From: Paludibacteraceae bacterium
Lineage (GTDB): Bacteria; Bacteroidota; Bacteroidia; Bacteroidales; Paludibacteraceae
DNA length: 64,000 bases
NCBI GenBank assembly: GCA_024693065.1
Contig: JAILLP010000033.1
Coordinates: 1 to 64,000 of the forward strand
Direction: 5' to 3'
Each line of letters opens with the position of its first letter. The first letter of the stretch is position 1. The notes beneath the pieces were generated by a model. That model saw nothing but the letters and a program-made list of their open reading frames with translations, made no database searches and was not told the origin of the DNA. This document shows, in pieces, positions 360 to 18,252 of this stretch. The position numbers and the translations under genes were made by a program.

Positions 360-1850
360 ATGGAAGATAAAATTAAATCGGCCTCGGATTGGCAAGGGTG
401 TGACATGTACCCTGGTATTGATAAGTATGAAAAAGTTGAATTGAAGCCTGGTCATGAACTTTGTTCCCTTGTTTTGATTGACGGAAAAGGTAGGGCTCGT
501 CCCTGTGAGTTCATGTTCCCGACGAGAGCATTGAAAATGATTGGTGATGACGCTGCGGAATTGAATCGTATGCTGCAATTGGCGCCTACTCGTTCGGATG
601 ATACGATGGAATGTAGGTATAAGGCTGTTTTGGCTTCGTTCAGATTGCGTGAGAATGTCGTGTTTGAGAAAAGTGTTTCGTCTGAGAATCCTGCGTATGG
701 TAAGGGTGGTTTGCCCCGTTATTATCTTCCCTTGAATCGGTTTCAAGAACTTATAGAAAGTGGTGGGCTGAAACGTGCGAAGTTTGAGAATGAGAGTATC
801 TCTAAGGTCCTGAATCATTACGAGGTTAAACCGAGAGATTATGTCAGAATCATTTCTCGTGTTAAACAGTTACAGTATCGTCGTAACTTGTTTTGTGCGC
901 AGAAAGCCAAACTGGATACTTTGGATATTATTCAGAATTCTCCACGGAGCGAAGATGTGGATAGAGCACTAAAAAATTTGAAGAAGTTGGATGAGAATAT
1001 CCTAAGTTTCAAGGAAAGGATTAAAGACTCCGTTCGTCGGCATGGTAGTGTTCCTTCTCCTCTATATGATGAGTTGAATCGTAGACTCGACTCGGAGATA
1101 AAAAATAGGGAAAGTGAAGACAATGTGTTAGTTTTGGGGAATGTGCATACGGAAATTTCTTCTACAAATGCCTTTGGATTATTGGAGCATGCTAACCTCA
1201 ATGTTTTGTCATTCTCTGAGTTGGATAAACAGGAGAGTGTACCACATAATCTTTTCCGTAAGATTGACGACTTTTCCAAGCGGAATCCGCATAATGAAAT
1301 CGATGTGAAGGATCAGGATTTGGTGGAAGTGATGAACATCAACCGCATCAACAAAGAGTGTCAATTTGTGATGGCAACGGAAGATTTGAAGCCTCGTAGT
1401 TTTCAATCGTTGGATCTTATCGCTTTGTCTACTTCGGGTGGGAAGCATATGTTGTACCATTTGGACGATGTCTTCACGGAACAATCTGTCCGAAAAATCC
1501 GTTCGTCTTTGAATGGAAAACTGACGGATCCGTTGCAGATGAAGGACGGGCGGATGGCTAAACTCATGATGTTGGGGAACAAGGCGAATTTGTTCCTTGC
1601 CCAGCCTAAAGAGAACCTTGCCGCTGTATTGGATCAGATGAATTTAGGTGATTCGGAGCGGAAACGTCTCCTGGATGGCGAGATTATTGCTTATAAGCAT
1701 ACTCATGTGAAGGTGGATAAAGACCTGAACTGTGTTGTGTCGGGTGCGGTGGGGAGGCTTTCCCCTTCGTCTCCATCTCAGAAACAACTTCAGCTTTTAT
1801 CTGCTCATAGGTCGCAGGAACGGATGAAGAAGAGGGGTTTCTCTTTGTGA
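360..1850 (+). CDS. Hypothetical protein, paralog A of a local gene pair
   Basis: A 496-residue protein without signal peptide or membrane segment, so probably cytoplasmic. It is homologous along its length to the product of 2554-4032. Shared landmarks are KIKSAS-WQG at the start, a block containing RRNLFCAQKAKLDTLDIIQ near residue 175, VPSPLYD, ENVLVLGN, MNINRINKECQ and a C-terminal stretch with KLMMLGNKA, QPKENLA and DKDLNCVV. From memory, the last 90 residues resemble DUF3945-type modules of Bacteroidetes accessory proteins; I could not verify this. The middle is charged and probably helical. Codon use is richer in T-ending codons than in its paralog, suggesting different histories. Function unknown. 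It has its own promoter at 273-303 and no clear terminator before 1930. Confidence 0.8.
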   Translation: MEDKIKSASDWQGCDMYPGIDKYEKVELKPGHELCSLVLIDGKGRARPCEFMFPTRALKMIGDDAAELNRMLQLAPTRSDDTMECRYKAVLASFRLRENVVFEKSVSSENPAYGKGGLPRYYLPLNRFQELIESGGLKRAKFENESISKVLNHYEVKPRDYVRIISRVKQLQYRRNLFCAQKAKLDTLDIIQNSPRSEDVDRALKNLKKLDENILSFKERIKDSVRRHGSVPSPLYDELNRRLDSEIKNRESEDNVLVLGNVHTEISSTNAFGLLEHANLNVLSFSELDKQESVPHNLFRKIDDFSKRNPHNEIDVKDQDLVEVMNINRINKECQFVMATEDLKPRSFQSLDLIALSTSGGKHMLYHLDDVFTEQSVRKIRSSLNGKLTDPLQMKDGRMAKLMMLGNKANLFLAQPKENLAAVLDQMNLGDSERKRLLDGEIIAYKHTHVKVDKDLNCVVSGAVGRLSPSSPSQKQLQLLSAHRSQERMKKRGFSL

Positions 1851-1996: not shown

Positions 1997-2539
1997 ATGT
2001 TAGACTTAAAGACCGGCAAATTCGTGATCGACGCCGAAAAAGGGTGGGAAGTGCACCCGTTCATGACCAGAGAGGAATTCCAAAAGTCGGGGTTATTTAA
2101 CTCGGAGTATCAAATAATCGACAAGGATTTCAAACTAAGCGACCCATTTTTCAGTTTTAGACCCATTCTAATGAATGGCTGCAACATGTACATGACCATT
2201 TTTGTGGGTGGCAGCCATGATTGTGTCAAAAGGATAGTTCTGACATCCAAGGAGGCGTACGAACTCCACGAAGGAGCTTACGGCGAAAACTGGAGGGAAG
2301 CGGCGCACGACATCAAACGTATGCACGACGAGTTCCTGATGCGCGAAGTGGGCTTAGACAAGGGGAATATAGACTCCGAAAAGAGCGAAAATTGGTTTAC
2401 CGTAGAATGGGGAGATTTCCATTCCAGTATGAGTTTAAGGTATGAACCCGTTATCGATATTACAATAAGTTATGATAATTTAACGGAAGAAGATAAAAAA
2501 AGATTAGACGAAATACCTGACGATATTTGTTGGAGTTAA
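1997..2539 (+). CDS. Hypothetical 180-residue cytoplasmic protein
   Basis: A 180-residue acidic protein with no signal peptide or membrane segment. The start follows an AAAAAAAGGAGG stretch, which is unusual for this phylum and supports the ATG at 1997. I recognise no family with certainty. The C-terminal part has the pattern WFTVEWGDFHSSMSLRY followed by a strand (DITISYD), reminiscent of small mixed alpha/beta proteins often annotated as immunity-like; this is weak. Its stop lies 14 bases before the start of paralog C, so the two are probably co-transcribed and may act together. Paralog A lies upstream on a separate promoter. Confidence 0.75.
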   Translation: MLDLKTGKFVIDAEKGWEVHPFMTREEFQKSGLFNSEYQIIDKDFKLSDPFFSFRPILMNGCNMYMTIFVGGSHDCVKRIVLTSKEAYELHEGAYGENWREAAHDIKRMHDEFLMREVGLDKGNIDSEKSENWFTVEWGDFHSSMSLRYEPVIDITISYDNLTEEDKKRLDEIPDDICWS

Positions 2540-2553
2540 AAAGACGAATGACT

Positions 2554-4032
2554 ATGAAAGAAAAAATAAAATCCGCCTCGGAATGGCAAGGCGGAGACCT
2601 GTATGCTGGCATAGACTCGTATGAGAAGATAAATTTAAAGGCCGGAACAGAGCTCTATGCACTTATCGCCTATAACAAGGCGGGGAAGATGAACACATGC
2701 GAATATTTCTTCCCTAAGAATGAACTGGGAATGGCAGAAGAAGATGCGACAAAGCTGAGTAGAATGCTGCAAATCGCCCCTTGGGAAAATCCCGAGACAA
2801 AAGAGTGTTCGTATAAAAAAGAGTTGATCGTCTTCAAACTGAAGAGTGAGACCGAGGTGGAGACGGGAAAAACGGCAGAAAACACCGCATATGGGGAAGG
2901 TGGCATGACGCAGTATTACATTCCAAGCGAAGGGAAAACGTTCAACGACATACTAACCATGTCCAAATTTGGGGATGGAGGAAACAGCAAGACCCTATCT
3001 AACAACAAGATGAAAAAAGAAGACTATGGCTATGTCATGGAACGGTTGTCTCAATTACAACTCCGTCGCAATCTATTCTGTGCACAAAAGGCAAAATTAG
3101 ACACATTAGACATCATACAAAATTCCGCAAAGAAAGATGATGTGGATTTAGCCCAAAAGAATCTCACAAAATTAGACAAAGACATTTTCGAATTCAGTCG
3201 TAAAATCAAGGAATCTATCGAGGTGATCGGCAAAGTCCCCTCCCCACTCTACGATAGCCTCAACAAGCAATCAGCAGAGGAGATTAAATTGCGGGAGGGC
3301 AAGGAGAACGTGTTGGTGCTGGGGAATGCGAAGGTGGAGCAATCCTTCAAAGAGACGTCAGAAGTGGTGTTAGGTAATGCAAGCCTCAACGTGGTGACCC
3401 TCGAAGAGGACAAGGCGCAAGCAGTGGCACAAAACCTCTTCAAGAAAATCGACGAGTATGACCCGGAAAAGAATTGGAACGATATAGACGTGAAGAATCA
3501 GGGGTTGGTGGACGTCATGAACATCAACCGCATCAACAAAGAATGTCAGAAGGTGATGGCGGAGGAGGCGCTGAGGCCTCGTGACTTCCAATCACTGGAG
3601 CGCATCGCCCTACCAACTTTCGACGGGAAGGCCAAGGAATATCGCCTATCCGAACTCTTCGACGAGAAGTCCGTGCAGAAGATACGCTCGGCGCAGAACG
3701 GTCAGTTGACAGAACCGCTCCAGATGAAGAACGGACAGACGGCAAAACTGATGATGCTCGGCAACAAGGCGCACCTCTTCCTCGGTCAACCGAAAGAGAA
3801 CCTCGCCCCAACATTGGACAAAATGAGCCTAGGCGACACGGAGCGCAAACGGCTCCTCAAAGGAGAGACCATCGCACACAACCAGACGCACGTGAAACTG
3901 GACAAGGACCTCAACTGCGTCGTGGCAGGCACGGCGGGAAGGCTTTCCCCTCCGAAGGAAAACCAATCGCAGAAAATGGATTCGCCGGAAGTAAAGCGAT
4001 CGAAGAAGAAAAAAGGAGGCATATCGCTGTAA
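2554..4032 (+). CDS. Hypothetical protein, paralog C of a local gene pair
   Basis: A 492-residue soluble protein, homologous end to end to the product of 360-1850. ATG at 2554 is preferred because the translation then aligns with the paralog start (MKEKIKSAS versus MEDKIKSAS); ATG at 2548 is two codons earlier and equally close to the GGAG at 2532. Conserved blocks are the LRRNLFCAQKAKLDTLDIIQ region, GKVPSPLYD, ENVLVLGNA, the MNINRINKECQ motif and the C-terminal KLMMLGNKA / QPKENLAPTLDKM / ERKRLL-GE-IA segment, DUF3945-like from memory. It ends in a basic tail rich in Lys. Codon use is richer in C, G and A endings than in paralog A. Probably an operon with the 180-residue protein. Function unknown. 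Confidence 0.8.
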   Translation: MKEKIKSASEWQGGDLYAGIDSYEKINLKAGTELYALIAYNKAGKMNTCEYFFPKNELGMAEEDATKLSRMLQIAPWENPETKECSYKKELIVFKLKSETEVETGKTAENTAYGEGGMTQYYIPSEGKTFNDILTMSKFGDGGNSKTLSNNKMKKEDYGYVMERLSQLQLRRNLFCAQKAKLDTLDIIQNSAKKDDVDLAQKNLTKLDKDIFEFSRKIKESIEVIGKVPSPLYDSLNKQSAEEIKLREGKENVLVLGNAKVEQSFKETSEVVLGNASLNVVTLEEDKAQAVAQNLFKKIDEYDPEKNWNDIDVKNQGLVDVMNINRINKECQKVMAEEALRPRDFQSLERIALPTFDGKAKEYRLSELFDEKSVQKIRSAQNGQLTEPLQMKNGQTAKLMMLGNKAHLFLGQPKENLAPTLDKMSLGDTERKRLLKGETIAHNQTHVKLDKDLNCVVAGTAGRLSPPKENQSQKMDSPEVKRSKKKKGGISL

Positions 4033-4051
4033 TGATTCTATCATATTTAGG

Positions 4052-4090
4052 GAAGGAGGCATATCGCTTTTGATATGCCTCCTTCTTCTT
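4052..4090 (+). terminator. Intrinsic terminator after paralog C
   Basis: A perfect 14-bp stem (4052-4065 with 4072-4085) and 6-base loop, followed by ttcttg. The left arm repeats the last codons of paralog C: aggaggcatatcgct occurs at 4015-4029 and again at 4056-4070. The stem lies between convergent genes and could also serve the giant gene from the other side. Confidence 0.75.
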
Positions 4091-4234
4091 GCATCACACT
4101 TTCAACAGGAATCAGGCATCGCCACCCCACACGACAGAAAGGAGAGTAACTGCAAAGAACGTCCCTCCCATACGACAAACGCCTCCAATCCTCTCGGACT
4201 GAAGACGCTCTCTTATGCAAAGAAAAAAGTAATT

Positions 4235-7200
4235 CTACATTTTGATGACCTTGAAGATCATACCATTCACGTTCACGATATACACACCGCTTCGCCATGC
4301 GGTCGCATCAATCCGCTCTGTTTTGGAAAGGATACCCTCCTTCACCTTCAGGCCAACCTCGTCGGTCACTTCATAAGGAAGCCCTTCTTCCATATTGGTG
4401 AAAACTTCGAAAGAGGTCTTCACAAGGGTTGGTGTCACATCCACATAGAGCGGACCATCAACTGCTTCGTTCTCAAATACATCATCCTCATCAGCGAATG
4501 CGGCGGCAACCTCGTAGGAACGCACCGTGCTCTTGTCGATGTACAGAGCAGAGTCTGACATTGTGGATTTACATATACCGTCCGTCACTTCCAGCCTTAT
4601 TTTGTAAGTGCCAGCATTGTAGAAGTAGCATGATGGGGATTGCGACTTGCTGGTCAGACCCTCTATACCTACACTTCCACCAAATGTACTGTAGTAATTA
4701 AGATTGAGTGGCTCTATCAGGTGCCACTTGTATGAGATGTCAGAACTGTTTTTAACGTCACTCGTCGCCTCCGCAATGAATGACACCTTGCTTCCCTGAT
4801 TGAGTCGCACGCTGTTTTCTGCCTTCCCCATTGGGTACTCGCTGGCTCCATCCACAATGTATTTGAACGAAGATGAGAAATGATCAACCACAAAATGCAC
4901 CACCTTCTTGGATGTCGCCCCTGTTGCAATAACATGTCTCGTGATGGTAACATCGAATGATTCTCTAGGGTAAAATATTGCTAAACCATCTTCAATTAGA
5001 GACTCGTCATTTTCTATGACGGATCCTTTTCCTATCAATTGGTCGTTTGACACAGAACTTTTCACGGCATAAAGCGATATGAAATTTTGTGTGTTTAACG
5101 AATAAGAGTATCTGTAGACGTCCGACCTCGGATTTTTATAGGCAATTCTGGCGAATTTATCTCCGTCGCAGATTGTGTCAAGCAGTACTAACTCGTCGTC
5201 GGTGATAAGTGGTGCGATATCAGTTTTCACTGTAAAGACTTTACTGGTGTCCGCACCGCAGTCATTCAATCCAATAACTCGATAGTAAACGATGAGCGCA
5301 GTGTCGGAGATTCTCATCTCATACAAATTCGTGGAGTTGCGCTCCATTGTCTCCACCGTATTCCATTCGTTAAGGTCATGGCTTTTCTGCCACAGCACTC
5401 TATCCGCATTGAAGACGCTGTCCTGCAGGTACATAGGAAGACTCGCAGTTTTCAAGACGCTTGTTTGCGAGTGGTCTAACCCGAAATCATCCAACTCCGA
5501 ATCGCTGTAGTTTGTAGTGATACCAGTCATGGTCACCAAAGATTTAATGGTGATGGTCAGTTCATTGCTTATGGACATGTATTGCTTGTTTTTGGTATAA
5601 GCCAATCTCCTATAGGTCGTCGGAATATCTATCACAGAAGGCGTATAATATTTGCCGGTAGCATTATCGATGTTGATGAAGTCCCCAGTACGTTCATTTT
5701 TATATTGCCAACGGTAGGAGATTAATCCAACGTATTCTAATCCGTCTTCCAATTCCGTCGCCACAATCGGAGAGATCTTGGACCCGCCACAAAGTACAGT
5801 GTCTCCATCAATGCTAATCACACCACCCCTCAATGGATTGACAACAAAAGGTTCGACACAATATGATTGTTTGGCGTATATCTCAAGGATGCTGTCCTTG
5901 TATACGTCGTATTTGTAAGGCAAAAGTATGCTATTCGAACTTGCGACAGGCAATTCGCCATCTCCGGAGAAATAATAGTTTTCGTCAAAACTTCTTGAGC
6001 CTTGAATGTTCAGCACGACACTGCTGTCACTAACATTACTTTCGATCGACATCGATAATTCTTTGCTGTAGTCAAAATCATATACCGATTGTCCTTCAAG
6101 TTTAAGTGTGTTGCTTGAATCCTTAATGCAACCGTTGTCCGCCACTCTGAATATTGACATTGTTAATTTAGCAGTAGTCCGCAGATTAGACCCGAATTCA
6201 CCTATTTGCTCATTGCCGTTCACATACCATGTGTATTTGACTTGCTCCGGATATAAACCTCCTAACACTGATCCGTTGATCCTGATTGTGCTTCCTATAC
6301 AAGGCTTGTAGTTCTCCGTTGTAATGATGTTCGTGTTCTCAATAATGGCTGGTTTATTATGGGCTGTGACGTAGATAACGTCACTTTGGCAAGTCAGGCC
6401 CGTCGAATCCGTCACAAAGTGGGTGAAAGGATAACTCATGCTGTCACCTTCAAATCCCTCCATTTGGATACTCTTGCCGATGACGGAGATTGTATCGTCG
6501 CCAAGCGTCCAATATTCCGAAGATGCGATGGAATCCATCTCGGCCACCACTTTGACGGAGAAGATGCCAAGCGGACATTTGAAATCATCGAAAGACAAAT
6601 CCTCCGGACTTACATTAGCCTTGGAGCGGATGTTGACGAGCACAATGTCCGAGGTATCCGCATCACACATGTCTGTCACAATTCTTCTAAAATAGGAAGC
6701 CGTTTTGATGAACCTCGATGAAAGTTGGAGGTCTTCCATCGTGCCATCTACAATGTCCGAAAAGTCCTCCTCATTGTCTGTGAGGCTAATTTGCCACTGG
6801 AAGTTCTTTTCTCCGTTGCCGCCGGAAAGTGTTCCACCCTTGATCTCCAAGTCGGTGTTCGGACAAATCGCTATAGGTGCGATTGGTGCAGACTGATCCA
6901 ATTTAGGAAGACTATCTACATAGAAATAATAGAAATCGCTGAAACATCCTGTCTCCATATCCTCGCTTTGTACACCATAATAGTCTGCCGGCATACTAGA
7001 GAACCTTCTTATTATATTTTCATCTCCTTCTCGGTGCCAATACTTTTCTTCTGTGATAGAAGTGCTATCCACACTGAAAAGGACTGAAATGGCATACCAA
7101 TGGTAAGTCTTCTCATACTCGTCCTTATAGATGGTGAGTCTCACCTCCTCCGCATTGCAGCTGTCGCTGTTCTGGTATATGCTTGGAATGCCGTTCGTGC

Positions 7201-10200
7201 GATATAGGGTAACCTGCACCGGTTCACTTGTCACCTCCTCGCACTCGTCCGCATACTTGCATCTGACGTTGATGGTGTTATTGACAGTTCTATCAAGACT
7301 GTCGGTCAGCCATCCCACATACAAGCTATCGATTGCATAGGCTGTTTCCCATTCTCCTCCGTTAATATTGTACTGCCATGTCACATTATATGCTCCATAG
7401 ACTTTACCACCGCTTGCAGGAAGATCCTTTTTCACGTATGGCAAGGTGTCGTAAGCACAGAACTTATCCTTTGTTCCATTCAAGGATATTGTACCAGGAG
7501 CAAGTCTCTTGTAATGTGTCAGTGCAAGCACATTACTGTAGCGAACCCTGCCCTTGTCGTTCGTCGCCACACGACGGATCAGCAACGGCGTGCTATCGGT
7601 GATGGTGATGGAGGAAATATCGTTGATGATATCTGCGGAGAGTCCCGTTCCCGTCTCTCCTTCTATTTTGCTCCATCCAGTTCTGCTGTCACTACTACGT
7701 TTATACTGCCAGGTATATGTCCATTTCATCTGTCCATATACAGGAGAAACGTATGTTCCGCTGGCAGGTGACTCGTTGATGATGTCGGAGTAGATGCCGT
7801 TGTGGCAAATGATCGAATCCGAGATATAGATGGTTCCACCGTTCGACTCCGTACCATACTCGAACGGAATGGCCACCGCTTCGCCGATACACTCCTCGCG
7901 TTTCGCCTTCGCATAGATGTACGCTCCTTCTCCCGCTTTCTGCTCCGCAATCTCACTTGTCAGCGTAAAGGAGCACCTACTACTACCGTCAGCAAGCACT
8001 TCTGTGCATTCCGGATCCAAATACCAGATAAGATCCACATACTGATCATTACAGAGGAAGAAAATCGAATCCCCAATCTCATATCCACTTCTGATGGCAT
8101 CTTCTTTTACCCTATAAGAAGTCACCTCAGGTGTGAACGCATATGTCGTTACCGTATCGGGGTCCAGTTTTTTGTTGAACAAAGAGAGAACAAGCTCGTT
8201 GCTCGCAAGCGATGAACATCCGTCGTCCAACACCCTTCTCACCCTGTACGTGCCATCCAATTCTCCATACTCTGTTTTTACCTTGTAAGGATCACTACCC
8301 GCAAACTGATTCTGAGAGTAATCATACTCCATATCCTTGACCCAATCCCCATTGTCCTTCTGGTATTCGTAATAGGTCTTGAATCCTCCAGGATAACTCT
8401 TATCATACAACCATGGTCCTATGTAATCTTTATATTTAGTCCAATAGTCGGGCAACGGATTTTCGAGATACCCAAGTATTTGATTCGGCATCTCCCCAAG
8501 ACAATAATTCTTCTTGCCACCCTCTACCGTGATATCTCCGGCCAATCCTCCAGGGTTGGTTAAGCCATCGGCGTATAAAGCATCGCTGACACTCTCAAGT
8601 GTAGGCACGACATATATGGTGACGGTGTCACTGTACAGAAAGTTCTCTATGCCACCTGCCACTACGCTCGTCCTTCTATATATTCGGACGGGCTGTCGCT
8701 CTCCCGATCTATTAATCAGACTCAGCGCCGCATTGGTTGTGTCGAGACGCACCTCAGGGGTTGTCACGTTTACCGATGTTCCTCCATCAACTTTTCTATT
8801 AATCATCGTGGGTTTGGTGGCATTCTTATTTAAAAAGAACCATGTGAAGGTGGCGTTAGGCGCATAATCGTCACTTGCGATCTGAATATCTTTCGTGCCG
8901 CTGCATATCCAGTAGTTGCCCTTCTCAGGATTGTGATCCTCTATGTAGATATGACCACCCGTCTGGTTGTACACATAGATGTCGATAGGCATCTTGTTCG
9001 CACTTGGACAGCCTCCCCTCACCGATTGCACGTAGTAGGTTTTCAGGAAGCTTTCGTCACCGCTCGGAACATCCAACGGTTCCGTTAAAACCGATATGTT
9101 CACCTCGCTTCTAGCCAATTCCTTATTCTCCGTCTCCCACCAGATGTATTGGATATCGTGCGTTCCGCTTTGACTGAAATCCGTGATACCGGTCAATTCC
9201 GCACGTGAACCTGTTGACACTATTCTGTCACATTGAACATCCTCAGGATGGATATTGAAGCTGTCCCTTACGACCACTTTCTTCACATTGCTGTACAATG
9301 TGTTCTTACATACGTCATCGGTCACCTTGCGACGGAAGTAGGTTGTGGTTTTCAGGTTATATTTCCCGCCCTCGTTGGTTGGTGCGAAGAACGGATCGTT
9401 ATCCTCTCCCTTCACAATCGCACTGAAAACTGTGTCGTTGCTCCACTCCCAAATGTAGGTATATTTCCCGCTTCCTCCTTTTGCCACATAGCCCTTTATC
9501 GTGTCTATGGCCGAGTTGTAGCATATCGTCTTCGTACCGTAGTCTATGCCGTTGTCCTTCAACGGTGCATATACATTCATCGTCACTTCGTTCGATGTGG
9601 CATATCCACCAGAATATCCGCCTCCGCAGGAAACTATCGCACGGAAACTAACGGTTTGAACCAAATTGGTGATTTTTACTGTTTGTCCGTACTCATCAAA
9701 GTTCTTCTCTATTTGTCCAATGTTGGCGGAAAAGAGCTCCATATTATCTCCCTCTTTCACTGCATACCAACTTTCACCGTTCTCCAGCTTATATTGCCAT
9801 GAGGTTTTATAGGTTGCGCTATCTCCTCCTGAAATTTGATCCAAGTGTAAATATCTTGCTCTGGTCTCATTAGGACAGAACGCAGAATCCAATGGGTTCT
9901 TTGTCAATGAAGGTGTCACCAGTCTCTTATAGATGTTGAAGGTGTAGTCGACCGTATCCGATATACATATTTCATCGGATATTTTAGCTTTCTCTCTTCT
10001 CACTACCTTTACGGTGTTTTCTCCAAAATGAGGGGTGTAGTAGACATACTGATATGAGAAATTGCTTGTATTTGACTCGTTTACTCCTATAAAATCATAC
10101 GAATCGGTATGATAATAATAGCGACTGAAAGGAATGATTTCAGGCAATGACTGCTCGTCGAGGAACACCGAGTTGCCTACGTAGCTTACCTGTGGCTTCT

Positions 10201-13200
10201 CCACCTCCTTGAAGTTGACCGAAAGATAGTTGTCGCTTTGGCTGTTTGTGCCGCAGTCATCCGTGGCTACAACACGGAAGAATGTCTTCTTGTTCCCCAA
10301 GTAATCCACTTCCACTGTTATGCTCTTGGCGGCTGTGGAATTGTTGCCGTTCCATTCCGCAGGGACAGGTTCCCAATTATTGCCATCGTTGGAGTATTCC
10401 CACTTCAGGGCCACGTTGTTCGGATCCAGCTTACAGGACATCATGACTTTCTCTTTACTTCCCTTACAGAACTCGTAGAAATTATAATAATATTCGTTGT
10501 CGTTCATGTCGACGAACGAGATTCCGCCGACCTTCATGCCGGAGCCTCCCTTCACGATGATAGGATTACTGCTTATCTTTCTGGTCCTACCACCCTCGTC
10601 CTTGCCGCTGAACACTACCGTGTAGGAATATTTCTTGCCGGCTTCGGCTGTGAACTTATAGGTGACGCCATCCCCCACAGGGCTGTTCCCGTAGTACCAC
10701 TGCCATTTGGCGTCCTTCATATTGAGGATGCTTTCATCCCCGAAGGTTATCCTTTCCGTGTTCTTTACCGAAAGTTCGACCGTCTCCCCTCCGCATATTT
10801 CTGCGGTGTCGCTTTGACCGGTGCTTGTTTCGATAATCGGTGTGCCGGAGAATCCCGTGTTCAGGATGAACGAATAGATGGCTTCGCTCTTACAACTGGT
10901 TGATATGGTTCCTTTGCGGTATACTTCCAAATCCACCCTGCTGGATTCCTCGAATAGGAACGAATCTATTGAAACGGACATTGCGGTTCCATTGTATGTG
11001 ACATCATCCAAGAAGATGAAGTCCCCGCTGCTGGCTGACAAAAAAGGGCTGACCACGTCTCCTTTGTCAACCCCTTTCAGGTTGACGGATACGTTTGTCT
11101 TACCATCCTTGAAGTCTTCAGGTGTGATGATGTTGTTGGTGACGATGATGTCGAAGGATAGATCCTTTTCCACCTTCACTTGGCCAACTCGGCTCTCCGC
11201 CCTGTATATGTTGGTGTTCGTACACTTGTTGTCCGTCACCACGACATAGAATGTGGTGTCGTTTGTCAACTTGACGTTAAATAACACTGAACCCTCTTTG
11301 GAGACGTGTTTGTCTTCTTGGGTTACGTTTCCCGGATAGAGGGCCAAATCGTATGTCGTTCCGCTTCCGCCTCCTTTGGCGATACCCAGCACTTCGAGAT
11401 TCTCCCCATAGCAGAATCTATCCCCGTCGTAGCCCATGGCTGGTGTTGTGAGCGCACCGTAGGTCTTCATGATGATGCTATCCGTCACGGTATAGCACAA
11501 ATCGGTGCCCTCATAGTAGAAACAGTTTCTTTTGACCTTATAGCTTTTGCCCGCCTCAGGGAAGGTAAAATCCATGGATTCTCCTGTTTCACCTGTTTTG
11601 ATGTCCCCGTTGACGCTCCACGAATAGGATGTGTACTCTTCGTCTTTCACTTTGCATGACAACGGTATTGGCGTGCCGGCGCAGACAGTATCCTGGTTAG
11701 GGTCTCCGTTCGGTCCTATGTTGAGGGACTTCTTCCTCTCCTTGATCTCAGATTCCTTGATTGTCTTATGGAGCGTGGTTTGACATCCCGTCTCAGTGTT
11801 CAAGACGATGATATCGTAATTGTAATCTTTCTTCTCCGTCAACTTAATCTTAGCCGTTGATACTCCTTCGACACCCGCGAACGCCTCACTTCCGCGGTGG
11901 ATTTCACAGAGATGTCCGTCTTTAGCCGCCCTGACTGTTATTTCGTTGCCGACCACCCTACATGAGCTGACGGTTGGCGTGACATCTATCTTCTCGTATG
12001 TCTCGACCTCTATTGATTGGCTGGATACGATGGTGTCGCCACAGAACTCCACAGCGGACTGGACCATATAGTTTTGTGTGGCTGGCATTTCATAATCTGT
12101 GGCCTTCTCATTGAATGTCTTCAATGTTCTATATTTTTCTCCGTCATAGTGGAAGTACCAGTATTTGGTTAGACATAGGGAAGCGCCGAATTTACTGGTC
12201 ATCAATGTCTGTTCATCCAGAAGATGGTCGTTGTTCAGGCGCATTGACAACTCGATGGTGTCTCCGTAACATTTCGGATCCGCCGTTAATAATCCGTCGA
12301 CAGTCACTGAAGGCTTCGGTTTCGAGTAGGTGGTGACCGTCAGGGCGTCGCTCACGTCCTTGCCCAGTTCCGTTCCGTCCGGCATGTAGGACGTGACCAC
12401 ACGTCTTAGATATACCTTCTCGTCCTCGTTGATTTTCCTTTGCCAATTTCCGTCATAGTTCTTACTCTCGAAGTATATGCTTTCGCCGCCAGCGTTTACG
12501 TTGGACATCTTGTACCAACTGCTTCCGTCATTGCTGTATTGCCATTCGTACATGGCGGTGGCTTGACCCGTGATCGCCTCCGGTATGGCGTTGTTTTCGT
12601 TCAATTTTGGCACGGTTGAACCAGGACATACATATATCGTGCTGACAAGGAATCTATTACCAGCCACTTCATCCAGCTTCATGAACTCGACCTTGACAGG
12701 TTCGCTTATGCAGTTTGTTCCAACCGTACGTTTCTTGTAGAAGTAAAGGGCTGGAGGCATGTCATCCGTGAGGTTGGTTTTGTATACCCCTCCCGTCATG
12801 GGTTTCAAATCCGATCCGTCATTCTTTTCGCTATAGAAATATTTATGTGTGCTGTTCTCCTTGTCGGAGATGATCAGCTTGCATTCCCTACCACGGTATC
12901 CCTTTACAACAATATAATTCTCCTCAGAAGAAGTGTTCTTTGTTAGGCTGATGTTATTACTTGTCGTCGTGATATTATCGACCGTGAACGTAGGTAATGG
13001 GTTAACATGCATAACTGCCTCTTTGACGATTGGTTCACTGCTGCATCCGTCCTGCATGCTCACCACAAAACGGACATCGTTTTGTATGTTTGGATAATTT
13101 CTTGTCGTGTTCACCTCGTTGTCGGAGGTGAACTCCTCCACATCGTCGCCATTGATGATTTTACAGTTGAAAGAGAACTTCTCCATCTTGTAATCGGACG

Positions 13201-14887
13201 GGTTCTCCCCCTCTTTGTATTTCGCTGTGAATTGCACATCCTCCAAGTTGTCACCCATGCACACTTCGGGTTGGCTTACCTCTACTGTCAAGTCATCTGT
13301 CTTAACCTTTTTGCTTATCTTAATCGTGTAATATACATCGTCAGGGGCATATATCTCCGCATCCTCGAAGGCCTCCAATATGGCACACTGCCTGAATTTG
13401 TATGTCACGCCTTCCTCAAGTGACGAGAGAGGTATTCTCAAATCAGGATCGTTATCTGGATTATATGTAAAAAGTTCATTGGTTCTTCTTATCTTATCCT
13501 CTTTACCCTTCGTTTCCAAGAGCCTTTCAGATGTTTTGTCTGTAGAGTATTTCCAAAGGTATTTTACGCCGTATGCGGATGCATATTTTGAGAATTCTCC
13601 GAAATCACATTTGTTCCCTGAATATATTTTATAATCATTTTCGTAATTGCTAGCAGTATTGCCGACTACTAATTGTGTGGTCGCAGGACATTCTACTCTG
13701 TCCGGTTTTTCATAGATTCCATCCAATGATGGAGAAGGAAGCACTAAGAACTCAATCTTATTGCTCTCGCATTTTGTAGAACCAACAAAATTAGAGTTGT
13801 CATACTCTACAGATCTGTAAACCTCGAACTTTTGTCCTGGCTTAAATTCTCGCCCATTGTTGCTTGCTTTGAATGTTCCAGTACTAATATTATCCACATA
13901 AATGTCATTTGACAAAGAAACGTTTGAGGTCTTGGGAGTAAACATTTCACCTCCTGATCCTGTCGGATTTGTTATGCTTACATAATCTTTTACTGTACAT
14001 TCCACGCCACCGTAAGATGGAGATACTTTATTTACGGTTGATGATAATCCAATATTACTCTCTGTCTGGCTTTCGTATATTGCATATAAATTAGCCTTTA
14101 ATTGAGGATTATATTCACTGTTAACGGCTAAATCTCCGACACCACATTTGAATATTCGAATTTGTAAAACATTTTCACCTGAAGTGTGAGCGTATCCAAG
14201 AAAAGTCTTGTCTTCATGTATCCAACCCTTCTCATCTGTATAATTCCACTTGCAATAATAAACATTTCTAAGAAATATGTCTATATATCCGTATTTGTTG
14301 TAATAATACAAATTATCAGCATTCCGTTTTATTTCTTCCCATAATTTATTTGTATTTAGGCTAAAAACTTTCCCTGGTATAAGATAGTTATAACCATAAT
14401 TTTTATTGGTCTTTAGAACATGTTCATCCTCTGGTTGCGTTGTGCAACCATAATAAACAGCATTGCTCCATGTTGACGTTTTATTTATTGTTGTCCATTC
14501 AAGATTATATATAACGAATAAATCTTTTGGATAGTCCATTCCTTTATTGTAATCATGCCACAATCTATGAGTTGCAACAAATGCTGTACTGCTAATGTCA
14601 ATGAACTTCTCTATGAAGTATGATTCTGTCATATATACAGTTCTTTTCCCTTGGTAAAGGCATTTCATTTCTTCTTTTTTGTCAGGAAAATCAAACTCCG
14701 TGTGTTCTAGTTTGCCTTTGTGATGATGGTCTTCGATTCGTTCAACACCGGGAACTTCATGCCAATCTGAGTGTGCATATTCTATGCCTGTGTCGCCAAA
14801 GCGCTGTCCCAAAACGGCTATGTTATTTAGGAATCCGATCAATATTAAGGTGATTCTCTTTACTATACTAAAATTTGCTTTTTTCAT
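4235..14887 (-). CDS. Giant T9SS-secreted multidomain surface protein
   Basis: A 3550-residue exported protein. The ATG at 14887 starts a good signal peptide (Lys-rich, hydrophobic, ending VLG before Gln28); an ATG 24 bases upstream would only add a hydrophilic leader. After a unique N-terminal region of about 400 residues, most of the chain consists of Ig/PKD-like beta modules of roughly 90-120 residues. Recurring features are a Cys near each module start (C-G-x-V or CPN/CYN), WQYS/WQY cores, and YYRRVVT or YFRRIVT strands ending in a Cys. Just before the end is a PKD-like module (GTYKIRLEVTDG). The last 80 residues form a type A T9SS sorting domain ending SGVYIVNVNGMIFKVIKM. It is probably a surface-anchored adhesin or scaffold. 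It is the third gene of a minus-strand operon with a lipoprotein and a barrel protein. No catalytic motif was recognised. Confidence 0.88.
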   Translation of the reverse strand: MKKANFSIVKRITLILIGFLNNIAVLGQRFGDTGIEYAHSDWHEVPGVERIEDHHHKGKLEHTEFDFPDKKEEMKCLYQGKRTVYMTESYFIEKFIDISSTAFVATHRLWHDYNKGMDYPKDLFVIYNLEWTTINKTSTWSNAVYYGCTTQPEDEHVLKTNKNYGYNYLIPGKVFSLNTNKLWEEIKRNADNLYYYNKYGYIDIFLRNVYYCKWNYTDEKGWIHEDKTFLGYAHTSGENVLQIRIFKCGVGDLAVNSEYNPQLKANLYAIYESQTESNIGLSSTVNKVSPSYGGVECTVKDYVSITNPTGSGGEMFTPKTSNVSLSNDIYVDNISTGTFKASNNGREFKPGQKFEVYRSVEYDNSNFVGSTKCESNKIEFLVLPSPSLDGIYEKPDRVECPATTQLVVGNTASNYENDYKIYSGNKCDFGEFSKYASAYGVKYLWKYSTDKTSERLLETKGKEDKIRRTNELFTYNPDNDPDLRIPLSSLEEGVTYKFRQCAILEAFEDAEIYAPDDVYYTIKISKKVKTDDLTVEVSQPEVCMGDNLEDVQFTAKYKEGENPSDYKMEKFSFNCKIINGDDVEEFTSDNEVNTTRNYPNIQNDVRFVVSMQDGCSSEPIVKEAVMHVNPLPTFTVDNITTTSNNISLTKNTSSEENYIVVKGYRGRECKLIISDKENSTHKYFYSEKNDGSDLKPMTGGVYKTNLTDDMPPALYFYKKRTVGTNCISEPVKVEFMKLDEVAGNRFLVSTIYVCPGSTVPKLNENNAIPEAITGQATAMYEWQYSNDGSSWYKMSNVNAGGESIYFESKNYDGNWQRKINEDEKVYLRRVVTSYMPDGTELGKDVSDALTVTTYSKPKPSVTVDGLLTADPKCYGDTIELSMRLNNDHLLDEQTLMTSKFGASLCLTKYWYFHYDGEKYRTLKTFNEKATDYEMPATQNYMVQSAVEFCGDTIVSSQSIEVETYEKIDVTPTVSSCRVVGNEITVRAAKDGHLCEIHRGSEAFAGVEGVSTAKIKLTEKKDYNYDIIVLNTETGCQTTLHKTIKESEIKERKKSLNIGPNGDPNQDTVCAGTPIPLSCKVKDEEYTSYSWSVNGDIKTGETGESMDFTFPEAGKSYKVKRNCFYYEGTDLCYTVTDSIIMKTYGALTTPAMGYDGDRFCYGENLEVLGIAKGGGSGTTYDLALYPGNVTQEDKHVSKEGSVLFNVKLTNDTTFYVVVTDNKCTNTNIYRAESRVGQVKVEKDLSFDIIVTNNIITPEDFKDGKTNVSVNLKGVDKGDVVSPFLSASSGDFIFLDDVTYNGTAMSVSIDSFLFEESSRVDLEVYRKGTISTSCKSEAIYSFILNTGFSGTPIIETSTGQSDTAEICGGETVELSVKNTERITFGDESILNMKDAKWQWYYGNSPVGDGVTYKFTAEAGKKYSYTVVFSGKDEGGRTRKISSNPIIVKGGSGMKVGGISFVDMNDNEYYYNFYEFCKGSKEKVMMSCKLDPNNVALKWEYSNDGNNWEPVPAEWNGNNSTAAKSITVEVDYLGNKKTFFRVVATDDCGTNSQSDNYLSVNFKEVEKPQVSYVGNSVFLDEQSLPEIIPFSRYYYHTDSYDFIGVNESNTSNFSYQYVYYTPHFGENTVKVVRREKAKISDEICISDTVDYTFNIYKRLVTPSLTKNPLDSAFCPNETRARYLHLDQISGGDSATYKTSWQYKLENGESWYAVKEGDNMELFSANIGQIEKNFDEYGQTVKITNLVQTVSFRAIVSCGGGYSGGYATSNEVTMNVYAPLKDNGIDYGTKTICYNSAIDTIKGYVAKGGSGKYTYIWEWSNDTVFSAIVKGEDNDPFFAPTNEGGKYNLKTTTYFRRKVTDDVCKNTLYSNVKKVVVRDSFNIHPEDVQCDRIVSTGSRAELTGITDFSQSGTHDIQYIWWETENKELARSEVNISVLTEPLDVPSGDESFLKTYYVQSVRGGCPSANKMPIDIYVYNQTGGHIYIEDHNPEKGNYWICSGTKDIQIASDDYAPNATFTWFFLNKNATKPTMINRKVDGGTSVNVTTPEVRLDTTNAALSLINRSGERQPVRIYRRTSVVAGGIENFLYSDTVTIYVVPTLESVSDALYADGLTNPGGLAGDITVEGGKKNYCLGEMPNQILGYLENPLPDYWTKYKDYIGPWLYDKSYPGGFKTYYEYQKDNGDWVKDMEYDYSQNQFAGSDPYKVKTEYGELDGTYRVRRVLDDGCSSLASNELVLSLFNKKLDPDTVTTYAFTPEVTSYRVKEDAIRSGYEIGDSIFFLCNDQYVDLIWYLDPECTEVLADGSSRCSFTLTSEIAEQKAGEGAYIYAKAKREECIGEAVAIPFEYGTESNGGTIYISDSIICHNGIYSDIINESPASGTYVSPVYGQMKWTYTWQYKRSSDSRTGWSKIEGETGTGLSADIINDISSITITDSTPLLIRRVATNDKGRVRYSNVLALTHYKRLAPGTISLNGTKDKFCAYDTLPYVKKDLPASGGKVYGAYNVTWQYNINGGEWETAYAIDSLYVGWLTDSLDRTVNNTINVRCKYADECEEVTSEPVQVTLYRTNGIPSIYQNSDSCNAEEVRLTIYKDEYEKTYHWYAISVLFSVDSTSITEEKYWHREGDENIIRRFSSMPADYYGVQSEDMETGCFSDFYYFYVDSLPKLDQSAPIAPIAICPNTDLEIKGGTLSGGNGEKNFQWQISLTDNEEDFSDIVDGTMEDLQLSSRFIKTASYFRRIVTDMCDADTSDIVLVNIRSKANVSPEDLSFDDFKCPLGIFSVKVVAEMDSIASSEYWTLGDDTISVIGKSIQMEGFEGDSMSYPFTHFVTDSTGLTCQSDVIYVTAHNKPAIIENTNIITTENYKPCIGSTIRINGSVLGGLYPEQVKYTWYVNGNEQIGEFGSNLRTTAKLTMSIFRVADNGCIKDSSNTLKLEGQSVYDFDYSKELSMSIESNVSDSSVVLNIQGSRSFDENYYFSGDGELPVASSNSILLPYKYDVYKDSILEIYAKQSYCVEPFVVNPLRGGVISIDGDTVLCGGSKISPIVATELEDGLEYVGLISYRWQYKNERTGDFINIDNATGKYYTPSVIDIPTTYRRLAYTKNKQYMSISNELTITIKSLVTMTGITTNYSDSELDDFGLDHSQTSVLKTASLPMYLQDSVFNADRVLWQKSHDLNEWNTVETMERNSTNLYEMRISDTALIVYYRVIGLNDCGADTSKVFTVKTDIAPLITDDELVLLDTICDGDKFARIAYKNPRSDVYRYSYSLNTQNFISLYAVKSSVSNDQLIGKGSVIENDESLIEDGLAIFYPRESFDVTITRHVIATGATSKKVVHFVVDHFSSSFKYIVDGASEYPMGKAENSVRLNQGSKVSFIAEATSDVKNSSDISYKWHLIEPLNLNYYSTFGGSVGIEGLTSKSQSPSCYFYNAGTYKIRLEVTDGICKSTMSDSALYIDKSTVRSYEVAAAFADEDDVFENEAVDGPLYVDVTPTLVKTSFEVFTNMEEGLPYEVTDEVGLKVKEGILSKTERIDATAWRSGVYIVNVNGMIFKVIKM

Positions 14888-14933
14888 GTGCTTAAATTTT
14901 TGAAATTTCACATGGAGGGGTCACTTTTTATTA

Positions 14934-15794
14934 TTATTTGTCAATTGTGATTATCTCTTTTTTCCATGTGCTCCAAGCCCCTTCGTTGTCCATACAACGA
15001 TAGTAGATGGTGTGCTTACCTGGCTCTTGAAATATGTGGTTGAAAACATTTATGGATGTGGCGGTGATGTAAACTCCTCCGTATGCGGCTTTGCCTCCTT
15101 GCCAATATCCTTCTCTTTGTTCGTAACGATTTTCGTTTTTCCTGTATTCTATGATATTTCCGTCAATACATACTTCGTATTTGCTTACGCTACCATCTTT
15201 GTCGTAACTGTTTCCTAAATCGATTTTCCTTTCCATGCCTTCTCCTGATATTGCTATTACTGGAATGGGTGCTATATTCCCAATTATATTGACCTTCACT
15301 TTTACTGGATATTCATTCCAAAAGTGGTCTCCATATACTAATATGAAATAACGATATCCCAATAGCCTTGCAGATGTGTCTGAATCGAACAATTGAACTT
15401 CGTCATGGGTTATTCCACCGATCAATGTGTAGTCGTTTTCTTTGTACTCAACCGAACTTCCAATGTTAAATTTTTGAGCGTCTCCAGTCCCAGGGTTTTG
15501 GGGATCTAGATACTCACTCCATGGCCTGATATATTCACTTTTCCCATACATCTCACGGTATACTCTGAATCCGCTTCTATCAGTTTCAACAGATTTGCTA
15601 AATACTTTCTCAGTACGAATTGTGACTTCTTGCATTTTGGGGTAATGGGCATCTACCGTATCGATGTGATCCGGATAGTTTATGTAGAATGTGATCTCGG
15701 AACTTTTTTCTTTGAACCAGTCATCTCGAGTGTCGCAAGATACGCAGACAATTGCACATGCGATAATTCCTAAAACATATATTGTTTTTTTCAT
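14934..15794 (-). CDS. PKD-like outer-surface lipoprotein
   Basis: A 286-residue lipoprotein. ATG at 15794 is chosen; the frame extends to a TTG three codons earlier, but MKKTIYVLG followed by a lipobox ending VSC at Cys20 is the natural start. The mature protein starts with DTRDDW. Its last 90 residues look like a PKD fold (ISGEGMERKIDLGNSYDKDGS, then HTIYYRCMDNEGAWS), as found in Bacteroidetes surface proteins. It sits 12 bases after the barrel gene stop and 46 bases before the giant protein gene on the same strand, so it may help anchor or present the giant protein. That role is inferred from position. No close named family recognised. Confidence 0.8.
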   Translation of the reverse strand: MKKTIYVLGIIACAIVCVSCDTRDDWFKEKSSEITFYINYPDHIDTVDAHYPKMQEVTIRTEKVFSKSVETDRSGFRVYREMYGKSEYIRPWSEYLDPQNPGTGDAQKFNIGSSVEYKENDYTLIGGITHDEVQLFDSDTSARLLGYRYFILVYGDHFWNEYPVKVKVNIIGNIAPIPVIAISGEGMERKIDLGNSYDKDGSVSKYEVCIDGNIIEYRKNENRYEQREGYWQGGKAAYGGVYITATSINVFNHIFQEPGKHTIYYRCMDNEGAWSTWKKEIITIDK

Positions 15795-15806
15795 GTCCTT
15801 CAATTT

Positions 15807-16385
15807 TTATCTGTGGAAGTTAAACCTAACTGCTAAAGAGAAGTTGGGCTTCAAGTAGTTCTCTGCTTTGCTGAACAGTGCGTATTGCTGCGCTTTCAGT
15901 ACGAATGACACCTTCGTCCATGGGATAAACTCCACACCTGTGCCTACTTGCGCACCGAAGCATAGACCTTTCTCTTGCACATCGACTAGGTCGCAAAGCC
16001 ATTTGTCATATCCGACGGCTGGACCTAACCCCCAGTGCCAATAAAACCATCTGGTGGAGTTTATCAGGTTGTGTTCAAAGCCTGGTGACACGAGTAAAGT
16101 GTTTATGAATTCAGTGTAACCGAAAAAGGCTCTCTCATGATCCAATTCCACCAGGAACGACATCCTGGTGTTGAAACAGTAGGCGTAGGTTAGTCCGAAG
16201 TCGATTATGTTCTTCGTTCCGTGACCGGCTCTGAGGCCAACTGATTGGCATCCTTTTACGTGCGAGAGTGTCACTGCCGCATATTGGTTGAGGCGTTCTT
16301 CCGCCATGCCCGTTGCCCCGAGCATTAGTGCGACTGACAGACAGATCAACTTGTGTGCCATCTTTCTTTTAAATGTATTTTTCAT
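15807..16385 (-). CDS. Outer-membrane beta-barrel protein (PorT/TraO-like size)
   Basis: A 192-residue protein with a signal peptide (hydrophobic CLSVALMLGATGMA, cleavage probably before EERLNQ). It then has alternating amphipathic strands and ends with a typical outer-membrane signature, FSLAVRFNFHR, with a terminal aromatic residue. The layout resembles small eight-stranded barrels of the PorT or conjugal TraO type, but no other conjugation genes are present. First gene of the operon encoding a lipoprotein and the giant T9SS protein. The order barrel-lipoprotein-adhesin suggests a role in placing the giant protein on the surface, by analogy with SprF-SprB pairs; sequence similarity to SprF is not evident. 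A second in-frame ATG is 8 codons in. Confidence 0.75.
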   Translation of the reverse strand: MKNTFKRKMAHKLICLSVALMLGATGMAEERLNQYAAVTLSHVKGCQSVGLRAGHGTKNIIDFGLTYAYCFNTRMSFLVELDHERAFFGYTEFINTLLVSPGFEHNLINSTRWFYWHWGLGPAVGYDKWLCDLVDVQEKGLCFGAQVGTGVEFIPWTKVSFVLKAQQYALFSKAENYLKPNFSLAVRFNFHR

Positions 16386-16530
16386 TTTCTACTGTTAATT
16401 ATCACTTAAACACTTCCGAATGTCCTTCATGGCTCTCTTTCTCCATGTCTTTCCGTTCGTGTGCTACGTCAATAAACCACAACTTACGCCCGAATGGGCA
16501 ATATCTATGTGTTTTTATTTAAATTCTCTG

Positions 16531-16562
16531 CAAAAATAATATTTTAATTAATATGAAACAAT
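16531..16562 (-). promoter_or_regulatory. Promoter of the giant-protein operon
   Basis: On the minus strand the -7 element is TATTTTTG (complement of 16531-16538). Twenty bases upstream is ATTG (complement of 16559-16562). It lies about 145 bases before the ATG at 16385, leaving a long leader in which I see no clear structure. Confidence 0.65.
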
Positions 16563-16744
16563 AGTGAAGTGTTTTTTACACAAAAATAATTGTATCTATT
16601 TGTAAATAAAATAAATAGAAATTTACAAATGAGAATATTTCTACAAAATAGTACCGTTTTGTTCCTTTTGCGTAAGATTCATGTGATATGTGTCTGATGA
16701 AGGTGTCATGTTGGGCTTGAAGTCTGGCATGCTCGTGATCGATG

Positions 16745-16780
16745 CCCCCCCCCCAAAAAAAAAGAACGGGAAGCCCATTC
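16745..16780 (-). terminator. Orphan intrinsic terminator next to a 10-base C tract
   Basis: Read on the minus strand, a 7-bp stem (GAATGGG with CCCGTTC, loop CTT) is followed at once by nine T and then ten G (plus strand: ten C at 16745-16754, nine A at 16755-16763). It has the form of a rho-independent terminator, but no minus-strand gene lies upstream of it before rplT. It could end a small RNA starting between 16800 and 17150, or be a relic. Confidence 0.5.
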
Positions 16781-16990
16781 TTTCCTGCCACAGTGTTTTT
16801 AGTTTTGAAGGAATAGCTGGTATGTGATTTTGTCCGCCTCCGGAATGTGTGCGGGGTGTTTTACAATATCGTCCGGTTTTGAAGATACATATTTGTTTCT
16901 ATTGAGGAATCGCCATGTTTCACGCCTTGAAAATGTCAATATTTTTGACCCGTGCTAACTTTCTAAGGGATTCTTTTGCGAAAAGAATGT

Positions 16991-17030
16991 TAATTTTATA
17001 TAAAATTACGAACGGATAAAATATCCGTTC
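16991..17030. promoter_or_regulatory. Two adjacent perfect palindromes, possible operator
   Basis: The first palindrome is an 18-base perfect dyad (16991-17008, taattttat and its complement). The second is a 9-bp inverted repeat with 3-base spacer (17010-17030, gaacggata / tatccgttc). One base separates them. They end 25 bases upstream of the -33 element of the peptide gene, a normal place for an activator or repressor site. The second has no T run, so it is not a terminator. Confidence 0.55.
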
Positions 17031-17055
17031 AATATGGAAAAAACAACTCGAAGGG

Positions 17056-17087
17056 TTTGGATTATGAAGAAATAAATGCTAAGTTTG
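17056..17087 (+). promoter_or_regulatory. Promoter of the small NVEALA-like gene
   Basis: TTTG at 17056-17059, 20 bases, then TAAGTTTG at 17080-17087, a full match to the Bacteroidetes pattern. The ATG follows at 17155. Confidence 0.7.
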
Positions 17088-17154
17088 GTATGTGACGGTT
17101 GAAAAATCTCACGTTTATTATTAATGTGTATGTCGAACTAAAAATTCTACGGCC

Positions 17155-17385
17155 ATGAAAAAAGGAATCGCAATTTTCGCAGTGTTGGGTGTTTGCGCCG
17201 CCGCTGCAGTAATCTATCAAAACCACTTGAACAATACTTGTGAGTTGAGTGCTGCTAACGTTGAGCCAGAGCCTGACATGGTGCTTCAGGAGCCTGTCGA
17301 AGAGAATCTTGGGTCAGAACAATTGTTCTCTGACATGAGGAGTAAGTTCACATCCACGGAGGAACAACAAAACTTTTACGAGTGA
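17155..17385 (+). CDS. Small exported NVEALA-like peptide
   Basis: A 76-residue protein. It starts MKKGIAIFAVLGVCAAAAVI, a short hydrophobic segment, then YQNHLNNTCELSAANVEPEP and an acidic tail. The arrangement (Lys-Lys start, one hydrophobic helix, a short spacer, then ELS-x-ANVE) is that of the NVEALA family of small Bacteroidetes proteins, though here the motif reads NVEPE rather than NVEAL. Such peptides are exported or membrane-anchored; their role is mostly unknown, with some proposed as secreted signals. It is a single-gene unit with its own promoter (17056-17087), terminator (17457-17493) and possible operator (16991-17030). Confidence 0.75.
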   Translation: MKKGIAIFAVLGVCAAAAVIYQNHLNNTCELSAANVEPEPDMVLQEPVEENLGSEQLFSDMRSKFTSTEEQQNFYE

Positions 17386-17456
17386 TATGCGTTTGTTCTT
17401 ACGTGGGTAAGTTAATAACAAGTTAGTGTTTCGCCTATAAGGTATGGCGCAAACGA

Positions 17457-17493
17457 AACAGGAGGCTCCCTATAGGCCTCCTGTTCTGTTTTT
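17457..17493 (+). terminator. Terminator of the peptide gene
   Basis: A perfect 10-bp stem AACAGGAGGC (17457-17466) with GCCTCCTGTT (17476-17485), then CTGTTTTT. Confidence 0.85.
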
Positions 17494-17530
17494 ATGTGGG
17501 TCCGTGATGCGCCTGCTTATGTGCATGCGC

Positions 17531-17563
17531 AAAAAAAAAGAGGCTACCCGAAGGTAACCTCTT
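17531..17563 (-). terminator. Terminator of the infC-rpmI-rplT transcript
   Basis: On the minus strand, GAGGTTACC (complement of 17553-17561) pairs with GGTAGCCTC (complement of 17540-17548) with one wobble, loop TTCG, then nine T. It lies 22 bases after the rplT stop. Confidence 0.85.
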
Positions 17564-17584
17564 CCGTTATGCGAGTGGAACGGC

Positions 17585-17935
17585 TTAAGCGTTCTTTACT
17601 TTCTCTACCACTGCCTTGAACGCCTCAGGTTGGTTCATGGCTAAGTCAGCCAACACCTTACGGTTCATTTCAATACCTGATTTGTGAATAGCGCCCATCA
17701 ATTGAGAGTAGGACATACCTTCCAAGCGAGCTGCGGCGTTGATACGTTGGATCCACAATGCGCGGAAGTTACGTTTCTTATTTCTACGATCGCGGAAAGC
17801 ATACAAAAGACCCTTCTCCCAAGTGTTCTTTGCAACTGTCCAAACGTTCTTTCTTGCACCATAGTAACCTCTGGTGAGTTTCAAAATTTTCTTTCTCTTT
17901 GCTCTTGAAGCAACGTGATTTACTGATCTTGGCAT
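17585..17935 (-). CDS. rplT: 50S ribosomal protein L20
   Basis: 116 residues, the usual length for bL20. It begins [16 protein letters not shown] and contains the family pattern [12 protein letters not shown] and [14 protein letters not shown]. It binds 23S rRNA and is needed early in 50S assembly. Last gene of infC-rpmI-rplT, followed by a strong terminator. In other bacteria L20 represses this operon; no repressor site could be assigned here. Confidence 0.98.
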
Positions 17936-18211: not shown

Positions 18212-18252
18212 TGTTTTGTAAATTAAATTAAACTGTGTATTAAGAAAATTTC

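Follow-up and report, generated by a model that had tools for sequence, protein, structure and literature searches.

What task is shared by a small outer-membrane barrel, a lipoprotein and a protein of some 3,550 residues that are encoded side by side on one strand? The question is raised by a stretch of 64,000 nt from the genome of a Paludibacteraceae bacterium (the window), in which an earlier note had described a three-gene operon behind one promoter. The features concerned were as follows.

16531..16561, minus strand: probable promoter of the three-gene operon, TTG-N20-TATTTTTG, ∼145 nt 5' of the barrel ATG
15807..16385, minus strand: gene for the barrel, 192 aa including a signal sequence, TraO-like though divergent
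14934..15794, minus strand: lipoprotein gene, 286 aa (ORF 14934-15803, likely ATG at 15794)
4235..14887, minus strand: giant gene, 3,550 aa (ORF 4235-14911 from a GTG, likely ATG at 14887)
4574..4804, minus strand: PKD domain covering residues 3370-3446 of the giant's GTG ORF (Pfam, 25 versus 23.5 bits)
4238..4432, minus strand: C-terminal T9SS type A sorting domain, covering residues 3494-3558 of the giant's GTG ORF (TIGR04183, sub-threshold in this copy)

The barrel, lipoprotein, and giant ORFs were all open, and the gaps counted from the likely ATGs were 12 nt between the barrel and lipoprotein genes and 46 nt between the lipoprotein and giant genes, confirming the three-gene operon. The single promoter also held up at the level of sequence. 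Using TTG-N20-TAnnTTTG, which we take to be the Bacteroidetes promoter form, the match at 16561-16531 was the only one within 415 nt upstream of the barrel, this block was kept in all four relatives aligned, and no promoter was seen by eye in the barrel-lipoprotein or lipoprotein-giant gaps. A search of window positions 1-20000 for RNA families yielded none reaching gathering scores. On the minus strand 5' of the operon promoter, positions 16745-16763 hold nine T followed by ten G, a possible slippage site. Elsewhere in the window, two 849-aa minus-strand ORFs (36627-39176 and 41340-43889) share a near-identical N-terminus (METFLII.AIIIA.VVIQSKLAGFTIRFQRLM).

The three genes were then traced in related genomes. 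The labels were assigned with profiles iterated from the window genome's own proteins (E≤1e-3), with the giant profile built from the C-terminal 450 residues only; this profile also matches other T9SS tails, and therefore only same-strand ORFs >900 aa were counted as adjacent giants. Across 22 barrel loci in 19 genomes, both a lipoprotein gene and a giant-type gene were present at all 22. The lipoprotein gene lay within 20 nt of the barrel gene or overlapped it at 20 of the loci, the giant gene intervening in G022 and G042. Sixteen of the giants were intact, two were split in two ORFs, and four were incomplete at contig ends. One further arrangement, barrel-giant-lipoprotein with a 919-aa giant, occurred in G363 on a 15 kb contig that has no tra gene. 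The six nearest named loci were from Bacteroidales or Paludibacteraceae MAGs, with sources that include sheep, yak, buffalo, and horse. The set is not due to chance, because it recurs across species; and the earlier note's own counter-case, that the barrel and lipoprotein families occur mostly apart from giants, was not borne out, since the three stay together at all 22 of the loci examined (six giants being split or incomplete).

The giant consists of Ig/PKD-like modules, with a variable N-terminal part and a conserved C-terminal part, and one PKD domain scored above the Pfam cut-off. It is probably secreted by the T9SS, as the earlier note had proposed: the window giant's tail reached 15.4 bits with TIGR04183 against a cut-off of 23, yet five of nine orthologous giant tails were above the cut-off (three were below and one was without a match), and the genome encodes SprA of the T9SS (2,408.7 bits). 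The 14 intact long giants spanned 3,358-3,792 aa as ORF lengths (mean 3,473 aa, SD 109), and two intact giants were short (G022, 1,263 aa; G042, 1,706 aa). The split giants measured 809 + 2605 aa (L040, G004:C58) and 520 + 2887 aa (L041, G014:C56), reflecting either an assembly error or a broken copy. Among the incomplete ones, those of G005 and G011:C168 run off the contig end, that of G011:C160 is cut at the contig start and lies upstream of traE, and that of G012 is shared between contigs C31 and C123; the N-terminal ORF on G012:C31 (389 aa) stops 113 nt short of the contig end and was recognised by visual comparison with the G006 giant.

The giants differ from one another mainly towards the N-terminus, by identity figures for which the alignment is unsure within the most divergent parts. 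Compared with G015 and G009, the first 200 residues of the window giant were 24% and 12% identical and the last 158 were 97% and 94% identical. Compared with G005, identity was 96-100% over residues 1-1000, 54-73% over 1001-1800, and 98% over 1801-1899, where the G005 sequence ends. The more remote orthologues, from G008 onwards, shared 8-30% identity over the N-terminal half and 20-48% nearer the C-terminus. No regular motif spacing was found along the giant. The T9SS anchors the C-terminal side of its cargo, and for this reason we read the variable N-terminal end as the cell-distal one. The mosaic fits recombination and diversification at that presumed distal end, and from the constant length and variable N-terminus we predict an outer arm that varies while the base carrying it is conserved.

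The barrel looks like a member of the TraO group of the Bacteroidetes (CTnDOT-class) type IV secretion system (T4SS), a machine with which bacteria hand DNA or proteins on to neighbouring cells. The window barrel itself scored 15 bits with PF10626 (TraO) against a cut-off of 25, and PF10626 had no match at E≤0.01 in the window's genome. At that same threshold, 15 of 61 genomes had a match, six above the cut-off and nine below. The six comprise canonical TraO proteins in G012, G021, and G055 and barrels of the window's family in G020 (39.3 bits), G002 (26 bits), and G042 (25.1 bits); eight of the nine weaker matches were also barrels of this family, the ninth being in G047. A profile of 20 barrels, with those of G020 and G042 left out, aligned with three canonical TraO sequences at an hhalign probability of 94.3 over the C-terminal 84 columns. 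When 393 genomes of the order were searched with the 20-barrel profile, 10 had matches, including the window's genome. Six of the other nine (G223, G310, G375, G200, G341, and G021) lay directly 3' of traN in tra operons, one was the G363 barrel described above, and those of G312 and G356, for which the fetched stretches showed no tra genes nearby, may be unrelated barrels. The negatives of this search are weak because at most eight candidates were scored per genome and the known G042 barrel was overlooked. The Bacteroides plasmid p5482 has a TraO gene three places past traN, and its product matched the barrel profile iterated from the window's own protein (1.9e-4); the barrel itself had no match among PLSDB plasmids. 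No NCBIfam model matched the window barrel at E≤1, including that for PorP/SprF (presumably TIGR03519). Structures predicted from seven-row alignments were poor (pLDDT 58 and 59); the barrel model has eight strands at low confidence and resembles OmpA/OmpX-type barrels (best E 8.8e-05), a likeness of little weight at such pLDDT.

In the lipoprotein, Cys20 is conserved within a CDTRDD-like stretch at the lipid-attachment site, and the C-terminus is PKD-like but sub-threshold in Pfam. An identity with TraQ was considered and rejected: against two proteins that we take, mainly from their position, to be TraQ-like, the hhalign probability was 6.9 and the signal peptide alone aligned.

The window's genome (G000) carries a Bacteroidetes-class T4SS cluster in which TraG (VirB4), TraJ (VirB6), TraK, TraM, and TraN occur together. 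This cluster (G000:C33:23867-32842) has ten genes, namely those for DUF4134, DUF4133, TraG, TraI-like, TraJ, two TraK, TraL-like, TraM, and TraN proteins, the TraI-like and TraL-like assignments being our assumption from position; it ends at TraN and contains no barrel gene. TraG (TIGR03783, 5e-276), both TraK (TIGR03781, 3e-60 and 1.4e-45), and TraN (TIGR03780, 3.9e-48) were above their cut-offs, with TraJ (TIGR03782, 7.5e-33) and TraM (TIGR03779, 2e-39) below. A lone coupling protein of 891 aa is encoded at G000:C28:30364-33039. The machine thus occupies three loci: tra on C33, the coupling protein on C28, and barrel-lipoprotein-giant in the window.

Relatives link these parts physically. 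The G020 order is traE-F-G-I-J-K-K-L-M-N-barrel-lipo-giant, and tra genes lay within 26.4 kb of the barrel at 9 of the 22 loci. The barrel directly follows traN in G022 (23 nt) and G020 (63 nt), and in G011:C160 and G034:C22 only the lipoprotein gene intervenes; the window lacks this arrangement. The module is upstream of traF in G006 and G013:C1, and it shares a contig with tra genes, within 26.4 kb, in G007, G034:C25, and G042. The parts also co-occur: among the 61 genomes the barrel was present in 18 and the TraN family in 21, both in 17, the barrel alone in 1, TraN alone in 4, and neither in 39 (Fisher 2e-10, uncorrected for relatedness). Outside the genus, TraN was present in 6 of 45 genomes, and these six included all three that have the barrel (p 0.0014, likewise uncorrected). 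We conclude that the operon probably supplies a Bacteroidetes-class T4SS with its components at the outer membrane and cell surface, the inner components being encoded at other loci of this genome, because the barrel is TraO-related, the module is in or linked to tra operons in several relatives, and the genome has a tra cluster of its own without a TraO, as well as a separate coupling protein. Against this stand the low PF10626 score of the window barrel, the absence of any tra gene from the fetched contig stretches at 13 of the 22 barrel loci, including that of the window, the different chromosomal sites of tra and barrel cassettes in several species, the failure to find a promoter or leader shared by tra and barrel operons, the poor structure models, the G363 set, and three genomes that break the barrel-TraN pairing. 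These are G003, which has a barrel and no TraN match; G010, which has TraN and no barrel match, its TraN and one P500 sitting at contig ends; and G014, whose sole TraN match is of the canonical short type.

Three further genes, one of them convergent with the giant gene, bear on what such a system might carry.

2527..4032, plus strand: P500, 501 aa, no known family, tail to tail with the giant gene; candidate substrate of the T4SS
1997..2539, plus strand: P180, 180 aa, just 5' of P500; candidate chaperone or immunity protein (a guess)
360..1850, plus strand: second P500 copy, 54% identical

P180-P500 pairs adjoin the barrel-giant operon or the tra cluster in the window (360-4032) and in G001, G005, G007, G009, G011, G013, and G015. 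The genus has 28 P500 matches, of which 15 are on the fetched stretches. These stretches had been selected for their T4SS parts, and all but one of the 15 matches are within 3.2 kb of such a part. Three of the other 13 share a contig with TraN at ∼9-11 kb (G001:C7, G009:C23, and G011:C23). Of the 16 genus members, nine have the own-type coupling protein, and these nine are also the ones with P500 (p 9e-5). When G013 is credited with its divergent P500, and both G013 and G014 with their element-type coupling proteins, the table becomes 10, 1, 0, 5 (p 0.0014, by hand). G019 has only short P500-like pieces, five consecutive ORFs of ∼95-112 aa at G019:C4:154750-158656 that match the N-terminal part alone (∼residues 11-102). 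Several P500 proteins end in a basic tail (e.g., KKRGFSL, KKKKGGISL), and a P500-like protein of 272 aa with a basic tail, encoded on a Hymenobacter plasmid (L101:18606-19424), adjoins genes of the Fic family and of the VbhA antitoxin family. Pfam, NCBIfam, and PADLOC revealed no known domain in P500, and the idea, formed by eye, that it is DUF3945-like was dropped for want of support in the same three collections. By linkage and co-occurrence P500 is a candidate T4SS cargo.

The relaxase model PF03432 matched in 14 of the 61 genomes, among them G008, G009, G011, G013, and G014 of the genus, whereas no genus member (16 genomes) had a PF01076 match; neither was found in 12 of the 18 barrel genomes, the window's included. 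PF03432 misses the DUF5712 protein of p5482, and DUF5712 was sought on the fetched stretches only (136 kb of 3.48 Mb in the window's genome). Three contigs combine module, coupling protein, and relaxase: G034:C25 and G011:C160, whose relaxases are above the cut-off for PF03432 and below that of the MobB model, and G042:C1, whose relaxase is DUF5712-like.

The apparatus agrees with that of the CTnDOT class in its TraG, TraJ, TraK, TraM, and TraN families and its TraO-like barrel, with identical order in G020 and G022. It differs in a longer TraN (374 aa in the window's genome, with two matched stretches), the two TraK of the window's genome, a lipoprotein unrelated to TraQ, an added giant T9SS-type protein, and the frequent failure to find a PF03432 or PF01076 relaxase. 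The p5482-type Bacteroides plasmids share TraG, TraM, TraO, the coupling protein, and a long TraN, which aligns with that of G022 at 30% identity over 98%; they differ in having a DUF5712 protein (typed MOBB among PLSDB relaxases) and a small PLCC-family protein after TraO, with no giant among the listed genes. The nearest functional parallel comes from the IncHI plasmid R27. Its RSP and RSP2 are large, Ig-like, extracellular, plasmid-encoded proteins needed for conjugation, RSP being encoded in the Tra2 region, and RSP inactivation lowers liquid conjugation to undetectable values (PMC6764697, PMC8730810). RSP differs in being a 155 kDa protein exported by the conjugative-pilus machinery rather than by the T9SS, and the likeness to the giant is drawn for role. 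Among the open-licence literature matches listed, no title dealt with a giant T9SS protein in a T4SS or a relaxase-less Bacteroidetes T4SS.

In gliding Flavobacteria, the SprF barrel gene adjoins the gene for the giant T9SS protein SprB, and the earlier note had likened the operon to such pairs. The barrel would then be a dedicated partner in export or tethering of the giant, unrelated to any T4SS, as the shared operon and the presence of a T9SS would allow; given the failure to match PorP/SprF at E≤1, the TraO profile matches, and the tra linkage, we set this reading aside as very improbable. The operon could instead be a remnant of integrated conjugative elements, its T4SS pieces scattered and no longer cooperating and its giant now an ordinary T9SS adhesin. 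The three separate loci, the differing chromosomal sites of the tra and barrel cassettes in several species, the contigs that join module and relaxase, and the split giants of G004 and G014 are all in its favour. Such decay is nonetheless unlikely. In the window's genome the giant gene, the coupling-protein gene, and every one of the ten tra genes have open frames, and the barrel and tra halves co-occur. Between G000 and four species (G005, G015, G001, and G009), identity is 95-96% for TraG, 94-100% for TraKa, and 84-98% for TraN, although TraM (70-87%), TraJ (64-90%), and traL (54-87%) vary more.

A stronger competitor, possible if still short of an even chance, is a Bacteroidetes-class T4SS devoted to protein delivery, which has lost its relaxase, has kept the coupling protein in one subclade, uses P500 and P180 as effector and partner, and docks by its giant on prey or partner cells. 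Conjugative T4SSs need a relaxase and some protein-secreting T4SSs are without a coupling protein, according to one paper (PMC4793230); as of 2016, it associates protein secretion with MPF_I and MPF_T only (PMC4793230). The relaxase counts, the matching distribution of P500 and the coupling protein, the proximity of P500 to T4SS parts, and the Fic and VbhA-family neighbours in Hymenobacter all point towards delivery, but DUF5712 relaxases escape PF03432, 7 of the 18 barrel genomes have no coupling-protein match, the proximity count covers 15 of the 28 P500 matches, and P500 has no known domain. The more specific proposal of a contact-dependent, protein-delivering MPF_B T4SS, in which a T9SS-exported, length-fixed, tip-variable giant chooses the target and P500/P180 form the cargo pair, is somewhat less likely again.

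We return to the operon as the probable outer part of a T4SS. The giant would be exported through the T9SS and its C-terminal end would stay fixed at the cell surface, so that the variable N-terminal modules would point outwards. It would then serve as a long contact arm whose N-terminal modules recognise or hold a target cell, with the barrel and lipoprotein joining the base of the arm to the TraN/TraM outer-membrane complex. By analogy, we infer for the giant a role as contact arm of the T4SS like that of the RSP proteins of IncHI plasmids. The "surface-display module" of the earlier note keeps its surface location and would more aptly be seen as the outer, surface-exposed part of a T4SS. 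In relaxase-bearing relatives the module would serve conjugation; in the genus, where mostly no relaxase was found, its role may be protein delivery, that of a helper, or that of a decayed conjugation system.

If this reading is correct, a T9SS substrate acting as the surface part of a T4SS joins two secretion systems that are usually studied separately. The constant length and variable distal end of the giant would be a mark, open to testing, of a recognition arm with limited reach. The module provides a candidate for protein delivery within a T4SS class that is known for conjugation, and hints at ways in which Bacteroidetes T4SSs may form and select their cell contacts.
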